From Dissulfuribacter thermophilus (lineage in GTDB: Bacteria; Desulfobacterota; Dissulfuribacteria; Dissulfuribacterales; Dissulfuribacteraceae): DNA of 64,000 nt. Below, in pieces: positions 48,270-59,113 of the stretch. A model generated the notes under the pieces. That model was not told the origin of the DNA and did no database searches. It saw only the letters and a program-made list of their open reading frames with translations. Location of the stretch: positions 124,001 through 188,000 of the forward strand of contig NZ_MAGO01000005.1 in NCBI RefSeq assembly GCF_001687335.1, written 5' to 3'. The translations under genes and the position numbers were made by a program. Each line of letters opens with the position of its first letter. Position 1 is the stretch's first letter.

Positions 48270-50168
48270 ATGGAAAGCAAAAAAATATTGCGGCAAATAG
48301 GTTATACAATATTCATAATTTTTGTAGCCTACGGAATTTGCTGTGCTGACAGTTCCTGTATCGAGTGCCATAAAGGTATAGAGCCTATCATAGACACCCC
48401 GCCTATGAAGGATCTGCCGTGCGAATTCTGTCATCAAGGAGATCCTAAAGAAATAGACATGAAAATGGCCCACGACGGGCTTCTTTCCAATCCCTCGGAT
48501 TACAGAGTTGTAGACAGGACATGTGGAGTTTGCCACTACGATATAGTTCTCTCCTCTAAAAAGAGTCTTCATGCTACCAGCGCTGGAATTATTAGTGGAG
48601 CAAGGTGGGCATGGGGAGCACAAAATACCAAAAGGGCCATCTATGGCACGTACAACGTGCGCGACACTGATAAGGATATCCCCTCTGAACATGGAGCACT
48701 TACCAACTTGAATAAACTCCCACGCTTTAACCCAAAGAGGCCATTGACTAACAGGAACCACCCTGTTGATGACTATCTGCGCGCGGAATGCCTCAGATGT
48801 CACGTATGGTCCAGGGGAGAAGAAAGGCCCGGAGACTATAGGGCCAGTGGATGCGCAGCATGTCATGTACTATATTCAGATCAGGGACTGTATGAGGGTA
48901 ATGATCAGGCCATTTCAAAGGATCGGCCTGGAAGGCCCATAACTCACCGGATTACTTCTAAGATCCCAACGTTCCAATGCCTTCACTGTCACAACAGAGG
49001 TGATAGGATAGGTACAAATTTCATAGGCACAATGGAATCAGACGGCTATGGTGCTCCGTGGAGCAGGACTGCTGGAGCTAAAGGAGGTAAAAAGCTTCAC
49101 GGAAAATACTATAACTATCTTATTCCAGACATCCATTATGAAAGGGGAATGGCCTGCATTGACTGCCATACCCAAAATGACATCCATGGAGATGGGAACA
49201 TCTACTCCAAGAAAGAACAGGCAGTGGAGATTGAGTGCACAGACTGCCACGGGACCTTGACCCAGAAAAGCACCCTTTATTCCTCCAGAGGTAAGAGAAT
49301 TCCATGGATATGGGAAGATAAGGGTAAAATACTCCTTCAAGGTAAAATTGATGGCAAGATACATGTCATCCCACAGATTAAAGAGATTCTGAACTCCAAT
49401 AATGATATGGCAAAGACTGCCATGGGAATTCCCGGCCATCTCGAAAAACTTGAATGCTATGCCTGCCATGCCAAATGGGCACCTCAGTGTTATGGGTGCC
49501 ATGTGCAGCAGGACCTTTCCCAAAAGGCAAAGGACTGGATTGAATCAAAAAGGTCTGCTGACCTTTCAAAGGCTGGGGAGCGGGGCTACCTGGCGCAATC
49601 TGCCTTTAAATGGCGAGAGACTCGATCCTATCTTAGATGGGACGACCCAACACTTGGAATCAACAGCGAAGGATTGGTTGCCCCCTTCATCCCTGGCTGC
49701 CAAGTCATATTTACTCAGATCGGACCAGGCAGTAACTCCAAGTTCACAAACTATGTATTTACCACTTCAGAAGGCATTTCCGGTATATCCTCAAACCCGC
49801 TACAGCCGCACACCATAAGAAAGGAGGCCAGGGGCTGTGAATCTTGCCATAGCAATAAAAAGGCATTGGGGCTTGGGACTGGGACCTTTATTCCTCAGAA
49901 AAACGGCATCCCCATACCATTTGGACTTGATCAAATCGTAGATGAAAACGGAACCCAGCTTCAGTCTACATCCCATGATGGAGCGCGACCATTTAACAGA
50001 GAAGAAATGTCTAAAATCAACAGGATGGGAGTATGTGCAGACTGCCATAAATTTATGACCGATCCCGTTATATGGAAGCGCATAAAAAAAAGGGTTGGCA
50101 GTGCCCAAACACGGAAACTGCATACAAAAGTCCTGAAACACCTCATAATCTCTGATGAAAACAACTGA
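48270..50168 (+). CDS. dodecahaem c-type cytochrome
   Basis: A secreted multihaem cytochrome of about 632 residues. A signal peptide (basic start, hydrophobic IGYTIFIIFVAYGICCA) precedes twelve CxxCH haem-binding motifs in order: CIECH, CEFCH, CGVCH, CLRCH, CAACH, CLHCH, CIDCH, CTDCH, CYACH, CYGCH, CESCH, CADCH. The spacing is wide for the first six, with paired clusters at CLRCH/CAACH and CYACH/CYGCH. I do not recognise it as octahaem tetrathionate reductase or hydroxylamine oxidoreductase. It is likely a periplasmic electron carrier or oxidoreductase. The start (ATG at 48270) has only a weak ribosome-binding site. The next gene follows after 17 bases. Confidence 0.88.
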   Translation: MESKKILRQIGYTIFIIFVAYGICCADSSCIECHKGIEPIIDTPPMKDLPCEFCHQGDPKEIDMKMAHDGLLSNPSDYRVVDRTCGVCHYDIVLSSKKSLHATSAGIISGARWAWGAQNTKRAIYGTYNVRDTDKDIPSEHGALTNLNKLPRFNPKRPLTNRNHPVDDYLRAECLRCHVWSRGEERPGDYRASGCAACHVLYSDQGLYEGNDQAISKDRPGRPITHRITSKIPTFQCLHCHNRGDRIGTNFIGTMESDGYGAPWSRTAGAKGGKKLHGKYYNYLIPDIHYERGMACIDCHTQNDIHGDGNIYSKKEQAVEIECTDCHGTLTQKSTLYSSRGKRIPWIWEDKGKILLQGKIDGKIHVIPQIKEILNSNNDMAKTAMGIPGHLEKLECYACHAKWAPQCYGCHVQQDLSQKAKDWIESKRSADLSKAGERGYLAQSAFKWRETRSYLRWDDPTLGINSEGLVAPFIPGCQVIFTQIGPGSNSKFTNYVFTTSEGISGISSNPLQPHTIRKEARGCESCHSNKKALGLGTGTFIPQKNGIPIPFGLDQIVDENGTQLQSTSHDGARPFNREEMSKINRMGVCADCHKFMTDPVIWKRIKKRVGSAQTRKLHTKVLKHLIISDENN

Positions 50169-50185
50169 TATTCTAGGGGAAGACG

Positions 50186-50665
50186 ATGTTGAGAGACGAT
50201 ATTGAAAAAAAGATCGAAGGTCTTTTAAAAAAGGGAAAATCCAGACGCCAGATTGTCAAAATACTGAAGGATGAAGTTGAGCCTGCTAAGCTCCTCTTTT
50301 ACCTAAACAATATGCCTGACCCAAAAGACAAAGAGAAATACGTCATTATAAACTTTTTTCTCTTAGGCCTCCTGGCCTTTATTACCGCAAGAAAGGTGGC
50401 AATGGCATTTTCCTTTGGAGGGTTCGACATCTATGCCATTCTCGCCCTTGTGGTGCCCGTGATCAATATCTATATCTTTATGGAGATAAGCAGATTTCGA
50501 AGGATCGGCTACCAATTCCTAGCAGTTCTGTCCTCACTATCCCTAATAAACCCGGAAAATCACCAGGTGCCTGAAGTCTTGTTATTACCTGCTATGGCAG
50601 GACTCTCTGGCTTCCTCTACATCAAGATGTTTCCCAAAAAGAATCTAATTAAAGACGTCCCTTGA
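50186..50665 (+). CDS. small integral membrane protein of unknown function
   Basis: A 159-residue protein, unrecognised. Residues 1-50 form a charged helical region (IEGLLKKGKSRRQIVKILKDEV) that could be a helix-turn-helix-like or coiled element. Four hydrophobic segments follow (about 54-70, 78-97, 105-120 and 130-148). It begins 17 bases after the dodecahaem cytochrome with a GGGGAAG ribosome-binding site, so the two form an operon. It may be a membrane partner or quinone-side anchor for the cytochrome, but no haem or Fe-S motif is present. Its end overlaps the convergent ATP-grasp gene by 21 bases. Confidence 0.7.
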   Translation: MLRDDIEKKIEGLLKKGKSRRQIVKILKDEVEPAKLLFYLNNMPDPKDKEKYVIINFFLLGLLAFITARKVAMAFSFGGFDIYAILALVVPVINIYIFMEISRFRRIGYQFLAVLSSLSLINPENHQVPEVLLLPAMAGLSGFLYIKMFPKKNLIKDVP

Positions 50666-53432: not shown

Positions 53433-54101
53433 TTAACATATGGACTTAACAGAATCTTTTGAGAGTATCTCACTCATGCTATGGCCCACATATATAGTAA
53501 GATGGCCAAGTGCCTTATACATATAACATTCTGCCCTTTCTGTTAATTGTTTACCAAAATTCGATACCCACATACCAAGGTGTTGGGAATAAAAGGAACA
53601 TGCAGTTTGCAACAGTGCACTAGCTTGTTCCTCGTCCCCATTTAAATCGAGCTCTGCAGAGGATCTCAATATGAGTCCTAAAAAAGCCATTTCAAAACCG
53701 ATATAATCCGGCCTATTTATCATCTTGATATAAGAAGGAATATCAAGCAGTTCAGGGTTAAAACCTGCACTAATATAAAAATTTTTAACTGACGCGCATA
53801 AATCAGTTCTCATAGGAATCTGTCTTTGTGCCAATTCAAAAGGTGGTAAGTACTTACCTGAAATTGGTACGAAAAAAAGATCATAAAATTCCTGAGTAAT
53901 GTCTTCGGATGAATCCCTCTCTACGAGAGTTAGCATCTTAGCAAATAGTTCTCCAGGGAAAATTTTTTTGAATTTATGGCCGACTTCCTTACAGCCTGCT
54001 ATGCGTTCCTCATCTGGTTCATTCAAATAGAGGGTCGCAACAAACTCAAAGAAGTCGGCCCATGCATTCTTCTCATCTGAATTCATGAAAATTGAACTCA
54101 T
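53433..54101 (-). CDS. TorD/DmsD-family molybdoenzyme maturation chaperone
   Basis: A 222-residue all-helical protein of the TorD/NarJ group, recognised by EFYDLFFVPISGKYLPPFELAQRQ and a C-terminal helical bundle. These chaperones bind the Tat signal of molybdoenzymes and hold them until the cofactor is inserted. It overlaps the end of ttrA by four bases, so it is co-translated and very probably serves TtrA, whose twin-arginine signal is intact. Confidence 0.85.
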   Translation of the reverse strand: MSSIFMNSDEKNAWADFFEFVATLYLNEPDEERIAGCKEVGHKFKKIFPGELFAKMLTLVERDSSEDITQEFYDLFFVPISGKYLPPFELAQRQIPMRTDLCASVKNFYISAGFNPELLDIPSYIKMINRPDYIGFEMAFLGLILRSSAELDLNGDEEQASALLQTACSFYSQHLGMWVSNFGKQLTERAECYMYKALGHLTIYVGHSMSEILSKDSVKSIC

Positions 54102-57100
54102 ATCTTTTCCAAACTTGCTGGGATTCCTTGTCTAGCATTTGAGCCAACAACAACATCAGCCAGTGTAGAAATACCCTTACGCTTATAGTCTGAAATACCC
54201 AGTAAATTATGGGCGATACCAGCGGCACGAGCGCGATCTCCGTCGATCTTTCTGCCTTTTATTACCACGGAGCGCGAACCAAGCCCCCAATGGCCGAATC
54301 CATGTTCTATACCAATCACTCCAGGAGCTATGCCGCTGCGCACATCTGCCTTGCCTTTGGCCTTTCCACCAGGAGTAACAACCTGTAAGGTATCTCCCCT
54401 TTTGATTCCTAGCCTTTTGGCATCTATCGGATTAATGACAAAGGCATTTTCCCTGTGAATCTGTCTTAGCCTCTTTTCTCCAATGGTATGTGATGATTGG
54501 AGCTGAGATTTAGTGCACACAAGCATAAAAGGCCACCTTGAGCGCGTAAATACCTTCTCTGTAGGTGTACCGTCGGCAAAGGCAGGTGGCTGCCAAGTCG
54601 GAACCCCTGAGAACCGTTCTCCTGTAAGACTATTTCTGGCAAGGGCTACCATCTCATTATAGATGTGCATAGGCTTTTTGTATCGATGAGCAAGCCACTC
54701 GCCCTCATATGCCTTTTCAGCACCTTCGAATCGTCCGCCCCTTGCCATGGCGTAAGCAACCTTCGGCCATTCGTCTTCCTTAAGAACCTTTTTGAGTTTT
54801 GGCAAAAGCCGCTCTACGCCTGTGATCTCCAGTTCCTCCTGAGTGATATCCGGAACTGGCTTGCCTGCGAAAGCGACATTTGCAAAGGCCCTAAGGAAGA
54901 AATCCTCAGGCGTATCAAGAGGATGCAAATTGCCCTTGGAATCTGGTATGGCCTCTTTCCCAAAGCCAGGAAGCCCCATTCTCTTTGCCACGGCTATAAT
55001 AAAGCTTTCCATACACACAGGGACACCCTCCTTAGTCTTTGCCTGAGGAGGATCCGTTACAGGCCAGCGGAAAGAGTTGGTCTTGGTAAGATGTGTTGCC
55101 CAGGGAGATGCAGCTCCCCAAGTCTCGTATAAAACAGTATCAGGAACTATATAATCGGCATAGGCGCTGCTTTCATTTATAAAGGGATCAATAGAAATTA
55201 TTAGCGGCAACCTCTTTGGATCAGCCAGCTTTTCCTTCACCTGCTCATAGAGCCCTGCCTGGCCATAGAGGGGATTGGTGTTCCACATTATCAGTGCCTT
55301 TAATCCATAGGGATATTGATTTAAAGCAGAAGGAATGAACTCTGATTGAAGAGCTGCAGAGAAAGGATACCAAGGGCCATCGGCTGGATATGGTTTTCCC
55401 TTGGCCTTTTTCAGTTTGTACTCTGTAGTCTTTTCGTAAGGGAATCCCTGTCTACTAATCCTTACTCCCCTGGGTTTGACCTTACCAGGAAATTTTTTAA
55501 AGTTGTAACGTGGTCCCTTTCCAAAATCTGGATATCGACCTCCGCCAATAGATGCGCCTCCCTTCCAGTTTAGGTTGCCCACCAATGCATTTAGTACAGC
55601 AACTGCGTAGGCAGTATAAAAGCCGTTGGAGTGCATCGTGCCTCCATGACAGTCTGCCACTGCCTTTCTCCCATAACTTGTAAACTCTTTTGCCAGGTCC
55701 ACAATTGTTTTTTCTGGGATACCACAGATTTGGCTGTACTCTGCCAGCGTATGGCGTCTTGATGCCTCAAGGAGGAGTTGAAGGGCCGTTTTTACTTCTA
55801 CTTCCTCCCCTCCTATCTTTACTGAACCCTTGTAAAAAATAAGGGCGCTTCTGGACTTTTCATTACCAATGGGCTTTCCTGTCTCTTCATCTATCACCAC
55901 GAAGCCGTCTTTGCTGTTAGGACGCCTTTGGGACAGATGGGATTCCCTCAGAAAGCGACCGAAAAGTGGATGGCCTTCTTGTGTGATTACCAAGTGGGAG
56001 GCATTGGACCAGCTTGGCTCAGATGCGGCTTTTGCAGCACGTGCTCCTGGAATTTTCAGGAATTGCTCGTTATACCTCCTGTTTTCCAGTATCCAACGTA
56101 TCATAGCCATTACAAGGGCACCGTCTGTTCCCGGCTTTATGGGAATCCATCTCACCCTGTCAGACGTCGCCATACAGTCTGAATTTGTAAGCAGTGGATC
56201 CACTACCACATACTTCAGATCGCCGTCGCTTCTACCCTTTGCAACCAATTTGCCCTGTCGCTGAAAAGGATTGCCTGCATTGGCTGGGGCAGTCCCTATG
56301 TTCAAAACAAATTTAGTATTCTTAAAATCTGGCTTTATATGCGGGTATTTCTTGAAATCTCCGAGCATAGCTGCATACCCGGCCCTCATTGAGAGACCAC
56401 AGTTACCCCTGTGGCCTGTAAAGTTGATGGTTCCAAAGGAGTTAACCGCAAATCGCTTGATGAGTTGTAACCGTCCCTCTTTGAATCCTGCCATTATAGC
56501 CAACTGGTTGGCCCGCGGACCCAGTTCTGGTCGGTTTGGATCGATTGGCCTCTTGAGGTCTCTGATTTTCCTCAGTCCATCCACATGTCCTTCGCCAAAA
56601 AGGTCTCCACCCTCAACTATCTCCTCGACCAGCTTTTCAAAATCGATGGGACGCCATTTGCCTGAATTTCGGGGTCCCACCCTTTTGAGAGGCACAAGTA
56701 CCCGATATGGATCATAAAGTTTCTCCAATACTGCATTCCCTCTGGCACATGCGGTGGCTCTGTGTTCAAGCCCTGCTTCCTCCTTCCTACTCAATTTGAC
56801 CAAGCTTTCTTTTAAAGGGGTCTCATATGGCAAAAAAGAGTCAGTTGCCAACACATGATATGGATTTCCAGCCACTCGCAGGATCTTTCCAGTCTTCTTG
56901 TCCACACGCAGCCTCACACCGCACAGGCTCACGCAACCCACACATACGGAATTGGATATGTACTGATTTTTATTTGGTCTTACTGCTCCTGTCTTTGGAT
57001 CAATGGAATATTCTGGCTCCAGAGCGTTTCCATAGATATGATGAGGAGGCTTCTCGCCTGCCCACCAGCCTTTTGCTATTCCCTTAAGAGTATGACGATA

Positions 57101-57172
57101 TCCGAGGCCAAATATACCAAGAGATGTTATCAAACCTGCTGCCTTAATTATATTTCTACGCTTTTTGTCCAT
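54098..57172 (-). CDS. ttrA: tetrathionate reductase subunit A (molybdopterin oxidoreductase)
   Basis: The catalytic subunit, 1024 residues, of a DMSO-reductase-family enzyme. A twin-arginine signal (KRRNIIKAAG) leads. The proximal [4Fe-4S] ligands are C77, C80, C84 and C142 (CVGCVSLC and ATACARG). The presumed molybdenum ligand is C258 in HRGNCGLSMRAG. Sequence landmarks such as EGGDLFGEGHVDGLR, NALVGNLNWKGG and the final ARQGIPASLEKI match Salmonella TtrA as I remember it, and length is the same. The product would reduce tetrathionate to thiosulfate in the periplasm; related substrates (trithionate, thiosulfate, selenate, arsenate) cannot be excluded. Gene order ttrB-ttrC-ttrA equals that of Salmonella. 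Confidence 0.87.
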   Translation of the reverse strand: MDKKRRNIIKAAGLITSLGIFGLGYRHTLKGIAKGWWAGEKPPHHIYGNALEPEYSIDPKTGAVRPNKNQYISNSVCVGCVSLCGVRLRVDKKTGKILRVAGNPYHVLATDSFLPYETPLKESLVKLSRKEEAGLEHRATACARGNAVLEKLYDPYRVLVPLKRVGPRNSGKWRPIDFEKLVEEIVEGGDLFGEGHVDGLRKIRDLKRPIDPNRPELGPRANQLAIMAGFKEGRLQLIKRFAVNSFGTINFTGHRGNCGLSMRAGYAAMLGDFKKYPHIKPDFKNTKFVLNIGTAPANAGNPFQRQGKLVAKGRSDGDLKYVVVDPLLTNSDCMATSDRVRWIPIKPGTDGALVMAMIRWILENRRYNEQFLKIPGARAAKAASEPSWSNASHLVITQEGHPLFGRFLRESHLSQRRPNSKDGFVVIDEETGKPIGNEKSRSALIFYKGSVKIGGEEVEVKTALQLLLEASRRHTLAEYSQICGIPEKTIVDLAKEFTSYGRKAVADCHGGTMHSNGFYTAYAVAVLNALVGNLNWKGGASIGGGRYPDFGKGPRYNFKKFPGKVKPRGVRISRQGFPYEKTTEYKLKKAKGKPYPADGPWYPFSAALQSEFIPSALNQYPYGLKALIMWNTNPLYGQAGLYEQVKEKLADPKRLPLIISIDPFINESSAYADYIVPDTVLYETWGAASPWATHLTKTNSFRWPVTDPPQAKTKEGVPVCMESFIIAVAKRMGLPGFGKEAIPDSKGNLHPLDTPEDFFLRAFANVAFAGKPVPDITQEELEITGVERLLPKLKKVLKEDEWPKVAYAMARGGRFEGAEKAYEGEWLAHRYKKPMHIYNEMVALARNSLTGERFSGVPTWQPPAFADGTPTEKVFTRSRWPFMLVCTKSQLQSSHTIGEKRLRQIHRENAFVINPIDAKRLGIKRGDTLQVVTPGGKAKGKADVRSGIAPGVIGIEHGFGHWGLGSRSVVIKGRKIDGDRARAAGIAHNLLGISDYKRKGISTLADVVVGSNARQGIPASLEKI

Positions 57173-57174
57173 TT

Positions 57175-58389
57175 TTACTTCACTCCTTTCACATTCACTG
57201 CCGATGTATTTAGTGGAATTTCAGAGTTAACCCCTCCCGACACTTTATCTTCGTTGGGTTCCCAGGGCATAAACCATGTAAAACCTAGAAAAAGGGCCAT
57301 CCAGATAGCCCAGTTGCTAACGACATGCATAATACCGGTTGCACCCCAGAAGCTGGGGAAATAGTGAGCAACACCTGCTGAGATCTTTGGCAGTTCCTGT
57401 CCTCCAATGACGGTATCCCATCTGAAAAGCCATACACCGCAAATCGCGACAAAGGATGCGAAAAGAAACAGAGGCCTAATGCGTCTCAATGGAGCAAAAA
57501 GTGAAACTATAAGTGGAAATAACAGCCCAAATCCCAATTCAAGGACAACGGCCTCGAAAAAATGTCTCTTGAACACGTAGGGAAGTGCCTCTTGAAAAAT
57601 TTTAAAAGAATAGGCATAGCCTATTGAATACCAAAGAAGCCTTAAAAGCAGATCACCCAATATGCTCCAGACCAGCAACTTGCCTAGACTATCCATGAGA
57701 TTCCAAGGTATCTTTCCCCTCTCATCCCTCACCATTATGGCAGTAACCAGTATCATCAGGGCTATACCGCTTACCATTGCAGAAATAAGAAAAATTAGTG
57801 GCATAAGCGAGGTGTGCCAAAGAGGCCTTGCCTTTACTACCCCTAGGATGTAACCAGTATATCCATGAACTGCGAGGGCGGCCGGTATACCTATCATGCC
57901 AAGAACACGTCCTACTTCGTGGTCCCGTTTAATGGAGGCAGATGTAATGTCCGTGTTTCCAAGAGCTAGCAAGGTGTAGATGGCTTTTAAAAAGCCAGAA
58001 CTATTCTTTGCCTTTCTAGCAAATCCTGCCCGAAAGACAAAAAGCATCTCAAGGCTGATCAGTATAGGATAGAAAGTGAGCAAAAACACGCCCCAACTCA
58101 TAGGAGAAGTGGAGTGTAAGTGATAATATAATGAATAAAATCTCCCTGGTTGAGCTAGGTCGGCAATAAGGTTAAGCGGAGCTGCTAAAAGCACCGTAAA
58201 AGCCATTATTAAAGCCAGACCAGCTATCGGTTCGTACTCTTTGTTGTTAAAAACATAAGTCAGTGAAGATATCAGAAAGGCGGCTGCGCTCACCCCTGTG
58301 AAGAAGAAATATTGGGGTACTGCCACACTCCACTGAACACTGGCTGCAGTATTTATTATTTCTACTATACTAGTCTCCATTTCAAACAA
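57175..58389 (-). CDS. ttrC: tetrathionate reductase membrane subunit (NrfD family)
   Basis: An NrfD/PsrC-type quinol-oxidising membrane anchor, 404 residues with nine to ten hydrophobic helices, beginning QWSVAVPQYFFFTGVSAAAFLISSL, and containing the long periplasmic-side segment LIADLAQPGRFYSLYYH seen in this family. It passes electrons from menaquinol to TtrB. It is slightly longer than Salmonella TtrC, with a charged C-terminal tail. It overlaps ttrB by eight bases and lies two bases before ttrA. Confidence 0.87.
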   Translation of the reverse strand: MFEMETSIVEIINTAASVQWSVAVPQYFFFTGVSAAAFLISSLTYVFNNKEYEPIAGLALIMAFTVLLAAPLNLIADLAQPGRFYSLYYHLHSTSPMSWGVFLLTFYPILISLEMLFVFRAGFARKAKNSSGFLKAIYTLLALGNTDITSASIKRDHEVGRVLGMIGIPAALAVHGYTGYILGVVKARPLWHTSLMPLIFLISAMVSGIALMILVTAIMVRDERGKIPWNLMDSLGKLLVWSILGDLLLRLLWYSIGYAYSFKIFQEALPYVFKRHFFEAVVLELGFGLLFPLIVSLFAPLRRIRPLFLFASFVAICGVWLFRWDTVIGGQELPKISAGVAHYFPSFWGATGIMHVVSNWAIWMALFLGFTWFMPWEPNEDKVSGGVNSEIPLNTSAVNVKGVK

Positions 58390-59113
58390 CCTCCTCTTCT
58401 ACTCCACTCCCAGCAGGCGATATAACGGCCTCTCCCTTGATCTGTCCGCTGAGAGTCTCATCCAGCCCGATATAAAAAACCATAGGACCCGTTCCCATAG
58501 CTCTTTTGAGTACCTGAACAGGATACTGACTGACCAACCTTGAAACTTTGCTATTAGGATCGTTAAAATTACCAAATACCCTTGCCTCTCCCACACATGT
58601 CTCGACACAGGCCGGATAAAGACCTGCTTCGAGCCTGTGCAGGCAAAACGTGCATTTGTCTGCAGTACGCGTGAGAGGATTGATAAATCTCGCCTCGTAG
58701 GGACATGCCTGGATGCAGTATCCACACCCCACGCAGACGCTATTATCCACAACAACTATTCCATCTTTTCTCTTCTTTGTTGCCTGCGTGGGACAAACCT
58801 GCACACAGGCGGGCTTTTCACAATGATTGCAGAGACGGGGAAGATTGATCCTATGGGTAGTTCCGTATCTTTCTATTTCATATGTTGAAACTATTGTACG
58901 GAACTTGCCCACTGGAATCTGGTTTTCTATTGAACACGCCACTGTACATGCCTGACACCCTATGCATTTCCTCAAGTCTATCACCATGCCCCATTTGGCC
59001 TCGCTCTTCCCTGCGAACTGAGTCGCCTGAGCAGAATCAGGACTTTTTAGGATTGAGAAGGAGGCCGCCGCCCCTCCTAACAGCTTGATAAAACTACGAC
59101 GTGAGCTATTCAT
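58382..59113 (-). CDS. ttrB: tetrathionate reductase iron-sulfur subunit
   Basis: A 243-residue ferredoxin-type subunit with a classical Tat signal SRRSFIKLLGGAAASF and four cysteine clusters: CIGCQACTVAC, CNHCEKPACVQVCP, CVGCGYCIQACP and CTFCLHRLEAGLYPACVETC. It would carry four [4Fe-4S] clusters and relay electrons from TtrC to TtrA in the periplasm. The gene begins 16 bases after the porin stop, so the porin and ttr genes share a transcript. Confidence 0.9.
   Translation of the reverse strand: MNSSRRSFIKLLGGAAASFSILKSPDSAQATQFAGKSEAKWGMVIDLRKCIGCQACTVACSIENQIPVGKFRTIVSTYEIERYGTTHRINLPRLCNHCEKPACVQVCPTQATKKRKDGIVVVDNSVCVGCGYCIQACPYEARFINPLTRTADKCTFCLHRLEAGLYPACVETCVGEARVFGNFNDPNSKVSRLVSQYPVQVLKRAMGTGPMVFYIGLDETLSGQIKGEAVISPAGSGVEEEVV

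Follow-up and report, generated by a model that had tools for sequence, protein, structure and literature searches.

A cytochrome gene with twelve haem motifs

We analysed a window of 64,000 nucleotides from the genome of Dissulfuribacter thermophilus, in which a gene coding for a multihaem cytochrome c is followed on the same strand by a gene coding for a small membrane protein. The features of interest are listed below, with positions counted from the first nucleotide of the window.

48270-50168, + strand: gene of an ExtM-like dodecahaem cytochrome c of the Cys type, 632 residues (open reading frame from the ATG at 48270 and its translation; NCBIfam model NF040943; CxxCH count)
48357-50048, + strand: span of the twelve CxxCH motifs, from residue 30 (first) to residue 589 (last) (motif count; register conserved in the 55 rows of alignment A2)
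49692-49703, + strand: PGCQ motif, in which Cys477 is encoded by the TGC codon at 49698-49700; this is the UGA (selenocysteine, Sec) site of a sister branch
50186-50665, + strand: gene of a small membrane protein of 159 residues, a neighbour only (open reading frame; neighbourhood comparison)
53433-59113, - strand: TtrA-, TtrB- and NrfD-like genes and the gene of a TorD-like chaperone (NCBIfam/profile reading)

The CxxCH motifs of the cytochrome start at residues 30, 51, 85, 174, 195, 237, 296, 323, 396, 407, 523 and 589. In 2000 shuffles of its residues, the mean number of such motifs was 0.05 and the maximum was 2, which rules out a chance origin. The direct count thus confirmed the twelve motifs reported in an earlier sequence-only reading of this DNA, and the gap of 17 bases that it gave between the cytochrome and membrane protein genes (50168 to 50186) was also found. 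The predicted protein should carry twelve haems. Its N-terminus is hydrophobic and signal-like, with the mature part starting at about residue 27, and as judged from these features the cytochrome is an exported protein. Its non-haem cysteines are Cys24 and Cys25, in the probable signal sequence, and Cys477, which is the sole non-haem cysteine of the mature protein.

Relationship to the ExtM family

The NCBIfam model of ExtM (NF040943) matched the window cytochrome with an E-value of 9.7e-81 and a score of 272 bits, and the match covers positions 18-306 and 337-592 of the 599 of the model. All 55 rows of alignment A2 match ExtM, and their twelve haem sites align in register. With both full-length similarity and twelve haems in the ExtM register, the window cytochrome is, by sequence comparison, a full-length but divergent ExtM homologue. 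As its score of 272 bits falls below the equivalog cut-off of 800, the function of ExtM cannot be transferred to it. In our sample of the phylum, 59 of 297 genomes contain ExtM matches at an E-value of 1e-15 or better, and the equivalog cut-off is exceeded in only seven.

The haem spacing had initially been considered to fit no known family. It does fit ExtM, a family that the earlier reading had not listed, but the statement stands for octahaem tetrathionate reductase, hydroxylamine oxidoreductase and NrfA. The model of octahaem tetrathionate reductase (TIGR04315) gave no match to the window cytochrome at E-values up to 1. For NrfA, hydroxylamine oxidoreductase and octahaem nitrite reductase, the matches are only local, covering roughly 50-85 residues and not extending across the haem core, with best E-values of 4e-4 (phmmer) and 1e-4 (profile). 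OmcS, for which the list of sequence hits served as the sole comparison, was absent from it. A comparison by sequence with solved structures yielded no relative beyond short local haem-motif matches, and an AlphaFold model of the cytochrome built from four sequences was discarded (mean pLDDT of 32).

In the portions available to us of two reports (PMC2825233, PMC5877670), Geobacter ExtM is described as a twelve-haem protein whose cluster also comprises a cytochrome b, a Rieske protein and ExtN with 10 haems. A link of ExtM to a bc complex was stated in 2010, and the porin ExtI of the cluster affects selenite/tellurite reduction. In those passages, this phenotype is in print for ExtI only, and no biochemical function is stated for ExtM. 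As far as the published passages go, selenite/tellurite and Fe(III) have each been connected with the ext cluster of Geobacter, which also holds rhodanese, porin and Sec genes. ExtM is described there as one of a small number of cytochromes common to the six Geobacter genomes under comparison.

An invariant cysteine and its probable replacement by selenocysteine

Cys477 of the window cytochrome lies in the sequence PFIPGCQVIF, and the equivalent stretch of a paralogue in the same genome reads IIVPG*QDF, where the asterisk denotes TGA. Among our collected loci, 72 rows display the PG[C/U]Q signature, 40 with a Cys codon and 32 with TGA; three of the latter represent a single gene of genome G005, which leaves 30 distinct TGA sequences. 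The other rows with at least 11 haems have xPCQ or TGCQ at this site, and the residue is lacking only in the tandem partners with 9-10 haems and in one gene truncated at the end of its contig. The Cys or Sec residue and the following Gln are thus invariant among the 12-haem members examined, and the Cys477-Gln478 pair of the window cytochrome follows this rule, which is defined here and unpublished.

In alignment A2, Cys/Sec477, Gln478, Glu450, Arg573, Arg243, Arg246, Asp287 and Asp298 are invariant in all 55 rows, as are His68, His289, His390 and His514. Cys residues are found elsewhere in columns near residue 383 (27 of 55 rows) and residue 614 (33 of 55), and every Sec member of the alignment has a further free Cys. 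The window cytochrome has no second free cysteine, which makes dithiol chemistry within its chain unlikely. It has 15 His residues outside the haem motifs, so that full bis-His ligation of its twelve haems is possible. In 10 of the 55 members of A2, non-motif His residues are fewer than haems, with a minimum of nine for twelve, and hence at least three haems lack a second-side His in the lowest cases. The shortage in these ten members leaves room for a haem that would be open or ligated by Cys/Sec.

Many relatives have tandem pairs of genes, one coding for a haem-rich protein with the Cys and the other for a 9-10-haem paralogue without it (loci L077, L081, L073, L082-L085, L074, L076, L078, L080 and L006). 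This arrangement suggests pairs of catalytic and non-catalytic subunits, like ExtM and ExtN.

Our search for homologues in related genomes returned close orthologues of the window cytochrome (53-66% identity) and a second group with ~35% identity, most members of which carry exactly one in-frame TGA. This TGA occupies the same codon as that of Cys477 and is followed by a SECIS-like hairpin. The TGA form is found in 37 of the 46 genomes of the class, as well as in other families; its position was determined at codon level for 32 rows (30 of them distinct) rather than in all 37 genomes. The equivalent gene of G015 is free of stops and was left unassigned at this site, the copy of G008 ends before the site at a contig end, and the pieces found in G043 carry extra stops and were left out of the TGA count.

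The hairpin was searched for sequence by sequence, with codon shuffles and the Cys sequences as controls. A hairpin with a score of at least 12 within 45 bases 3' of the codon was found in 29 of the 30 distinct TGA sequences, compared with 8 of the 46 Cys sequences. Hairpins with GG in the loop are present in 25 and 1 of them, respectively. Codon shuffling of the TGA set, repeated 200 times, gave at most 7 of 30. This search thus gave a clear result, unlike a fixed-column test of a single SECIS stem, which was weak (74% of paired cells at shift 0 versus 70% at shift +2) because the stems vary in length and place. The letters of the stems vary among families, and the pairing is kept.

The genome of D. 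thermophilus codes for SelB and for a tRNA-Sec with the anticodon TCA. SelB scores above its cut-off in 35 of the 37 genomes with the TGA form, but it is weakly discriminating, as it exceeds this cut-off in 54 of the 60 relatives overall; the two exceptions, G016 and G018, are 83% and 90% complete. Altogether, the sequence data argue strongly that the TGA is read as selenocysteine. The window gene, with TGC at codon 477, does not itself code for a selenoprotein, and the UGA and the SECIS-like element are found in its paralogue, as follows.

G000:C6:155276-156814 (loci L002 and L036): UGA-containing ExtM-like paralogue in the same genome, whose Sec site aligns with Cys477

Near the 3' end of the gene of this paralogue, the reading frame changes within a stretch of T just upstream of the last haem motif. 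Roche 454 sequencing is prone to errors of this kind. According to the available part of its description, the genome of D. thermophilus S69 was made by that method, and the frame change is therefore likely a sequencing error. The same genome contains a second SelB-like gene (285 bits; G000:C11:19880-21882) directly beside a 90-base tRNA-Cys with the anticodon GCA (L120) that scores as tRNA-Sec (58.8 bits). This tRNA-Cys appears to be of the selC* type, served by an elongation factor of its own.

Distribution and phylogeny

Orthologues of the window type were found in 12 of the 46 genomes of the class, and all 12 also have the TGA form. Thus, the Cys form is a parallel paralogue and not a stand-in that followed the loss of Sec. 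In a tree of 80 rows, obtained by a quick search and rooted at its midpoint, the Sec label needs 2 changes, compared with a mean of 24.3 after shuffling. This is consistent with a single gain of Sec among Cys-type proteins and a single reversion to Cys, in G011. The clade of the window cytochrome and a sister group of longer proteins fall outside the Sec branch. Among the tree labels, row L112 stands under 'none' despite its PGCQ motif, and the true number of rows without the residue is three.

The longer proteins are Cys-type ExtM-like proteins of about 730-815 residues, which six of the 46 class genomes encode (G017, G021, G031, G040, G041 and G042). None of these six genomes has a window-type orthologue. 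The two members placed in the tree (L031 and L033) fall in the sister group of the window clade.

Genetic context

The cytochrome and membrane protein genes had been proposed to form a two-gene electron-transfer unit, in which the cytochrome would dock on a four-helix membrane protein linking it to the quinone pool. The two genes are on the same strand, 17 bases apart, and they are adjacent again in a sister genus (74.5% identity). A comparison of the neighbourhood of the pair, set beforehand as the test of this proposal, revealed that the membrane protein gene is not conserved beside the cytochrome gene. It adjoins it in 2 of the 12 class genomes with a clear orthologue, D. thermophilus (G000) and G002, which belong to one family and have in common a wider syntenic block composed of a DVU0772-family gene, the cytochrome gene, the membrane protein gene and an ATP-grasp gene. 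In two genomes (G010 and G044), the cytochrome gene is too near a contig end for its 3' side to be seen.

Homologues of the membrane protein at E-values of 0.01 or better are found in 23 of the 60 relatives. In the other 10 genomes with an orthologue of the cytochrome, they are located on other contigs, and they also occur in several genomes devoid of such an orthologue. Of eight further loci read, six (L127-L131 and L133) have the gene directly after DAHP-synthase and glutamine-amidotransferase genes, which were named using Pfam for L128 and by similarity for the other loci. One more gene intervenes in L132, and L134 has a different context. Hydropathy analysis of the protein showed overlapping hydrophobic stretches at residues 49-79 and 70-105 and another at 128-151; three helices are thus clear and the fourth is only possible. 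No NCBIfam match to the 159-residue protein was found at E-values up to 1, and it has no family match that would suggest haem or quinone binding. We also considered that the gene might code for ExtQ, which was rejected on the same search. From these comparisons, the membrane protein is judged to be a coincidental neighbour outside the cytochrome system, and the two-gene unit is very improbable.

The TtrA-, TtrB- and NrfD-like genes and the chaperone gene at 53433-59113 raise another hypothesis, namely that the cytochrome is a tetrathionate or thiosulfate enzyme that would work with TtrABC. TsdA and SoxA are known examples of cysteine-based chemistry at a haem. The sequence-only reading rightly placed the cytochrome in the same neighbourhood as tetrathionate reductase genes; nevertheless, these are on the opposite strand, at a distance of over 3 kb, and two genes unrelated to them, coding for an ATP-grasp protein and a permease, lie in between. 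The fetched flanks of the other orthologues contain no TtrA homologue, and the TtrB-like iron-sulfur matches near them amount to two weak ones (29-31% identity). With no match of the cytochrome to TIGR04315 in addition, such a role seems improbable, and a linkage to the tetrathionate reductase genes was dropped after the comparison of the flanks. The gene set at 53433-59113 on the - strand can be read as coding for a tetrathionate reductase or as a MOLY cluster. The MOLY cluster is proposed as a marker of sulfur disproportionation in the available part of a report (PMC12998232).

Rieske and cytochrome b (ExtP-like, NF040969) genes are located directly upstream in 8 of the 18 Sec loci fetched with flanks, directly upstream of one Cys-type locus (L006) and alongside the sole true-ExtM locus fetched with wide flanks. 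Genes for ExtN, Rieske ExtO and cytochrome b ExtP are absent both from the immediate surroundings of the window gene and from the flanks retrieved for its orthologues. In the orthologous loci read, the block common with G002 is the only case of conserved neighbours of the window gene. The Rieske/cytochrome b pair is often encoded elsewhere in the genomes of the class, and D. thermophilus has its own copy on C13. Its genome also codes for an ExtN-like 9-haem protein (C12) and for ExtKL (C4:161543-162739). The genome thus contains components of an ext-like system at dispersed sites, and we infer that they may work jointly.

The NCBIfam model NF040968 ('iron-sulfur subunit ExtO') matches the 10-haem ExtN at L114:7891-9186 (- strand) with a score equal to that of the ExtN model, and it does not match the Rieske protein. 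The model thus appears to be misnamed.

Proposed function

We propose that the window cytochrome is an exported dodecahaem oxidoreductase of the ExtM family with Cys477 at its active site and that the adjacent membrane protein gene is a coincidental neighbour, a reading to which we assign a probability of roughly 0.6. That Sec and Cys replace each other at a position belonging to no haem motif points to a reactive residue in an active site. The members of the ExtM family with this Cys or Sec are thus probably enzymes and not just wires. Cys477 would act as a nucleophile or a haem ligand, either reacting with a small substrate or holding the substrate at a haem, and the haem chain would carry electrons to or from it. 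Electrons would be exchanged with the periplasmic electron pool, in the case of the Sec paralogue probably through the Rieske/cytochrome b quinol module.

The alternative is a pure electron-transfer wire, in the form of a periplasmic or outer-membrane relay in which Cys477 would play a structural part, for instance by stabilising the fold or by tuning, as axial ligand, a haem without catalytic function. Many cytochromes of the multihaem type do no more than conduct electrons, and the 15 non-motif His residues suffice to provide bis-His ligation for all twelve haems. However, selenocysteine is normally found at redox-active or metal-ligating sites, and its presence in a whole branch, with a SECIS-like hairpin, is costly. 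A wire would not need the invariant Glu450, Arg573 and Gln478, and the 9-10-haem partner subunits manage without the Cys/Sec residue. In the published passages available to us, Geobacter ExtM is described in a bc-type cluster, which fits a wire, and this cluster rises with Fe(III). We consider the wire unlikely, though a serious contender to the enzyme.

As to the substrate of the proposed enzyme, it may be a small sulfur or other chalcogen species, such as polysulfide, thiosulfate, tetrathionate, selenite or tellurite, and the window cytochrome is probably a periplasmic multihaem oxidoreductase acting on a compound of this kind. Such a substrate is favoured by the Cys/Sec residue, the sulfur-based life of the host and the presence of rhodanese, porin and Sec genes in the Geobacter cluster; it is the weakest step of the proposal. 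In a more specific and rather doubtful version, Cys477 (Sec in the proteins of the sister branch) would be the distal ligand of a haem at which catalysis takes place. The Sec paralogues would then be natural selenolate-ligated haem enzymes, working as terminal sulfur-/selenium-oxyanion or polysulfide oxidoreductases fed by the Rieske/cytochrome b quinol module, and the window gene would code for the thiolate version, maintained alongside the selenolate one in the same cell.

The ExtM family itself is already known, and the new point is the Cys/Sec exchange at an invariant residue. We did not find the invariant Cys and its exchange for Sec in this family in open-access papers, nor did we find a proposed active site for ExtM there. 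As seen in part, a 2026 review of the prokaryotic selenoproteome lists ExtKL and an octahaem cytochrome; a text find in this review, whose table was covered incompletely, returned no occurrence of ExtM, NF040943 or PGUQ. The exchange at one invariant non-haem residue gives the ExtM-type cytochromes one testable catalytic candidate, and the ExtM-like branch with UGA adds a probable selenoprotein family. Dissulfuribacter thermophilus is described, in the available part of the source, as an elemental-sulfur disproportionator. In the accessible portion of another paper (PMC8780430), the reaction that initiates S0 disproportionation in sulfur disproportionators is called unknown. The window cytochrome is a concrete candidate enzyme in such an organism.

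Comparison with known systems

With octahaem tetrathionate reductase, NrfA and octahaem nitrite reductase, the window cytochrome shares only short local matches around the His...CxxCH stretch, and it differs from them in haem number, length and register. ExtKL (NF040886), which is present in the same genome, is likewise a Sec-containing cytochrome c of the Geobacter cluster that encodes ExtM. However, in the passages available, ExtKL has five haems in its N-terminal part and a C-terminal part like no characterised protein, and it represents a separate family.

The UGA-containing paralogue encoded on C6 is of the same ExtM family as the window cytochrome, and its Sec aligns with Cys477. The two proteins have about 35% identity and differ by UGA in place of TGC and by extra Cys residues of the paralogue in columns where the window cytochrome has none. 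Haem 3 is bound by a CxxCH motif in the window cytochrome, whereas this motif has a longer spacing in the Sec-type relatives. At position 101, Met is found in most relatives and His in the window cytochrome.

Geobacter ExtM (GSU2935; NF040943) differs from the window cytochrome, which scores 272 bits against a cut-off of 800 and has no adjacent ExtN, Rieske or cytochrome b gene. The two nevertheless have in common the full-length match to the same model, twelve haems in the same register and a PGCQ motif with the same Cys.
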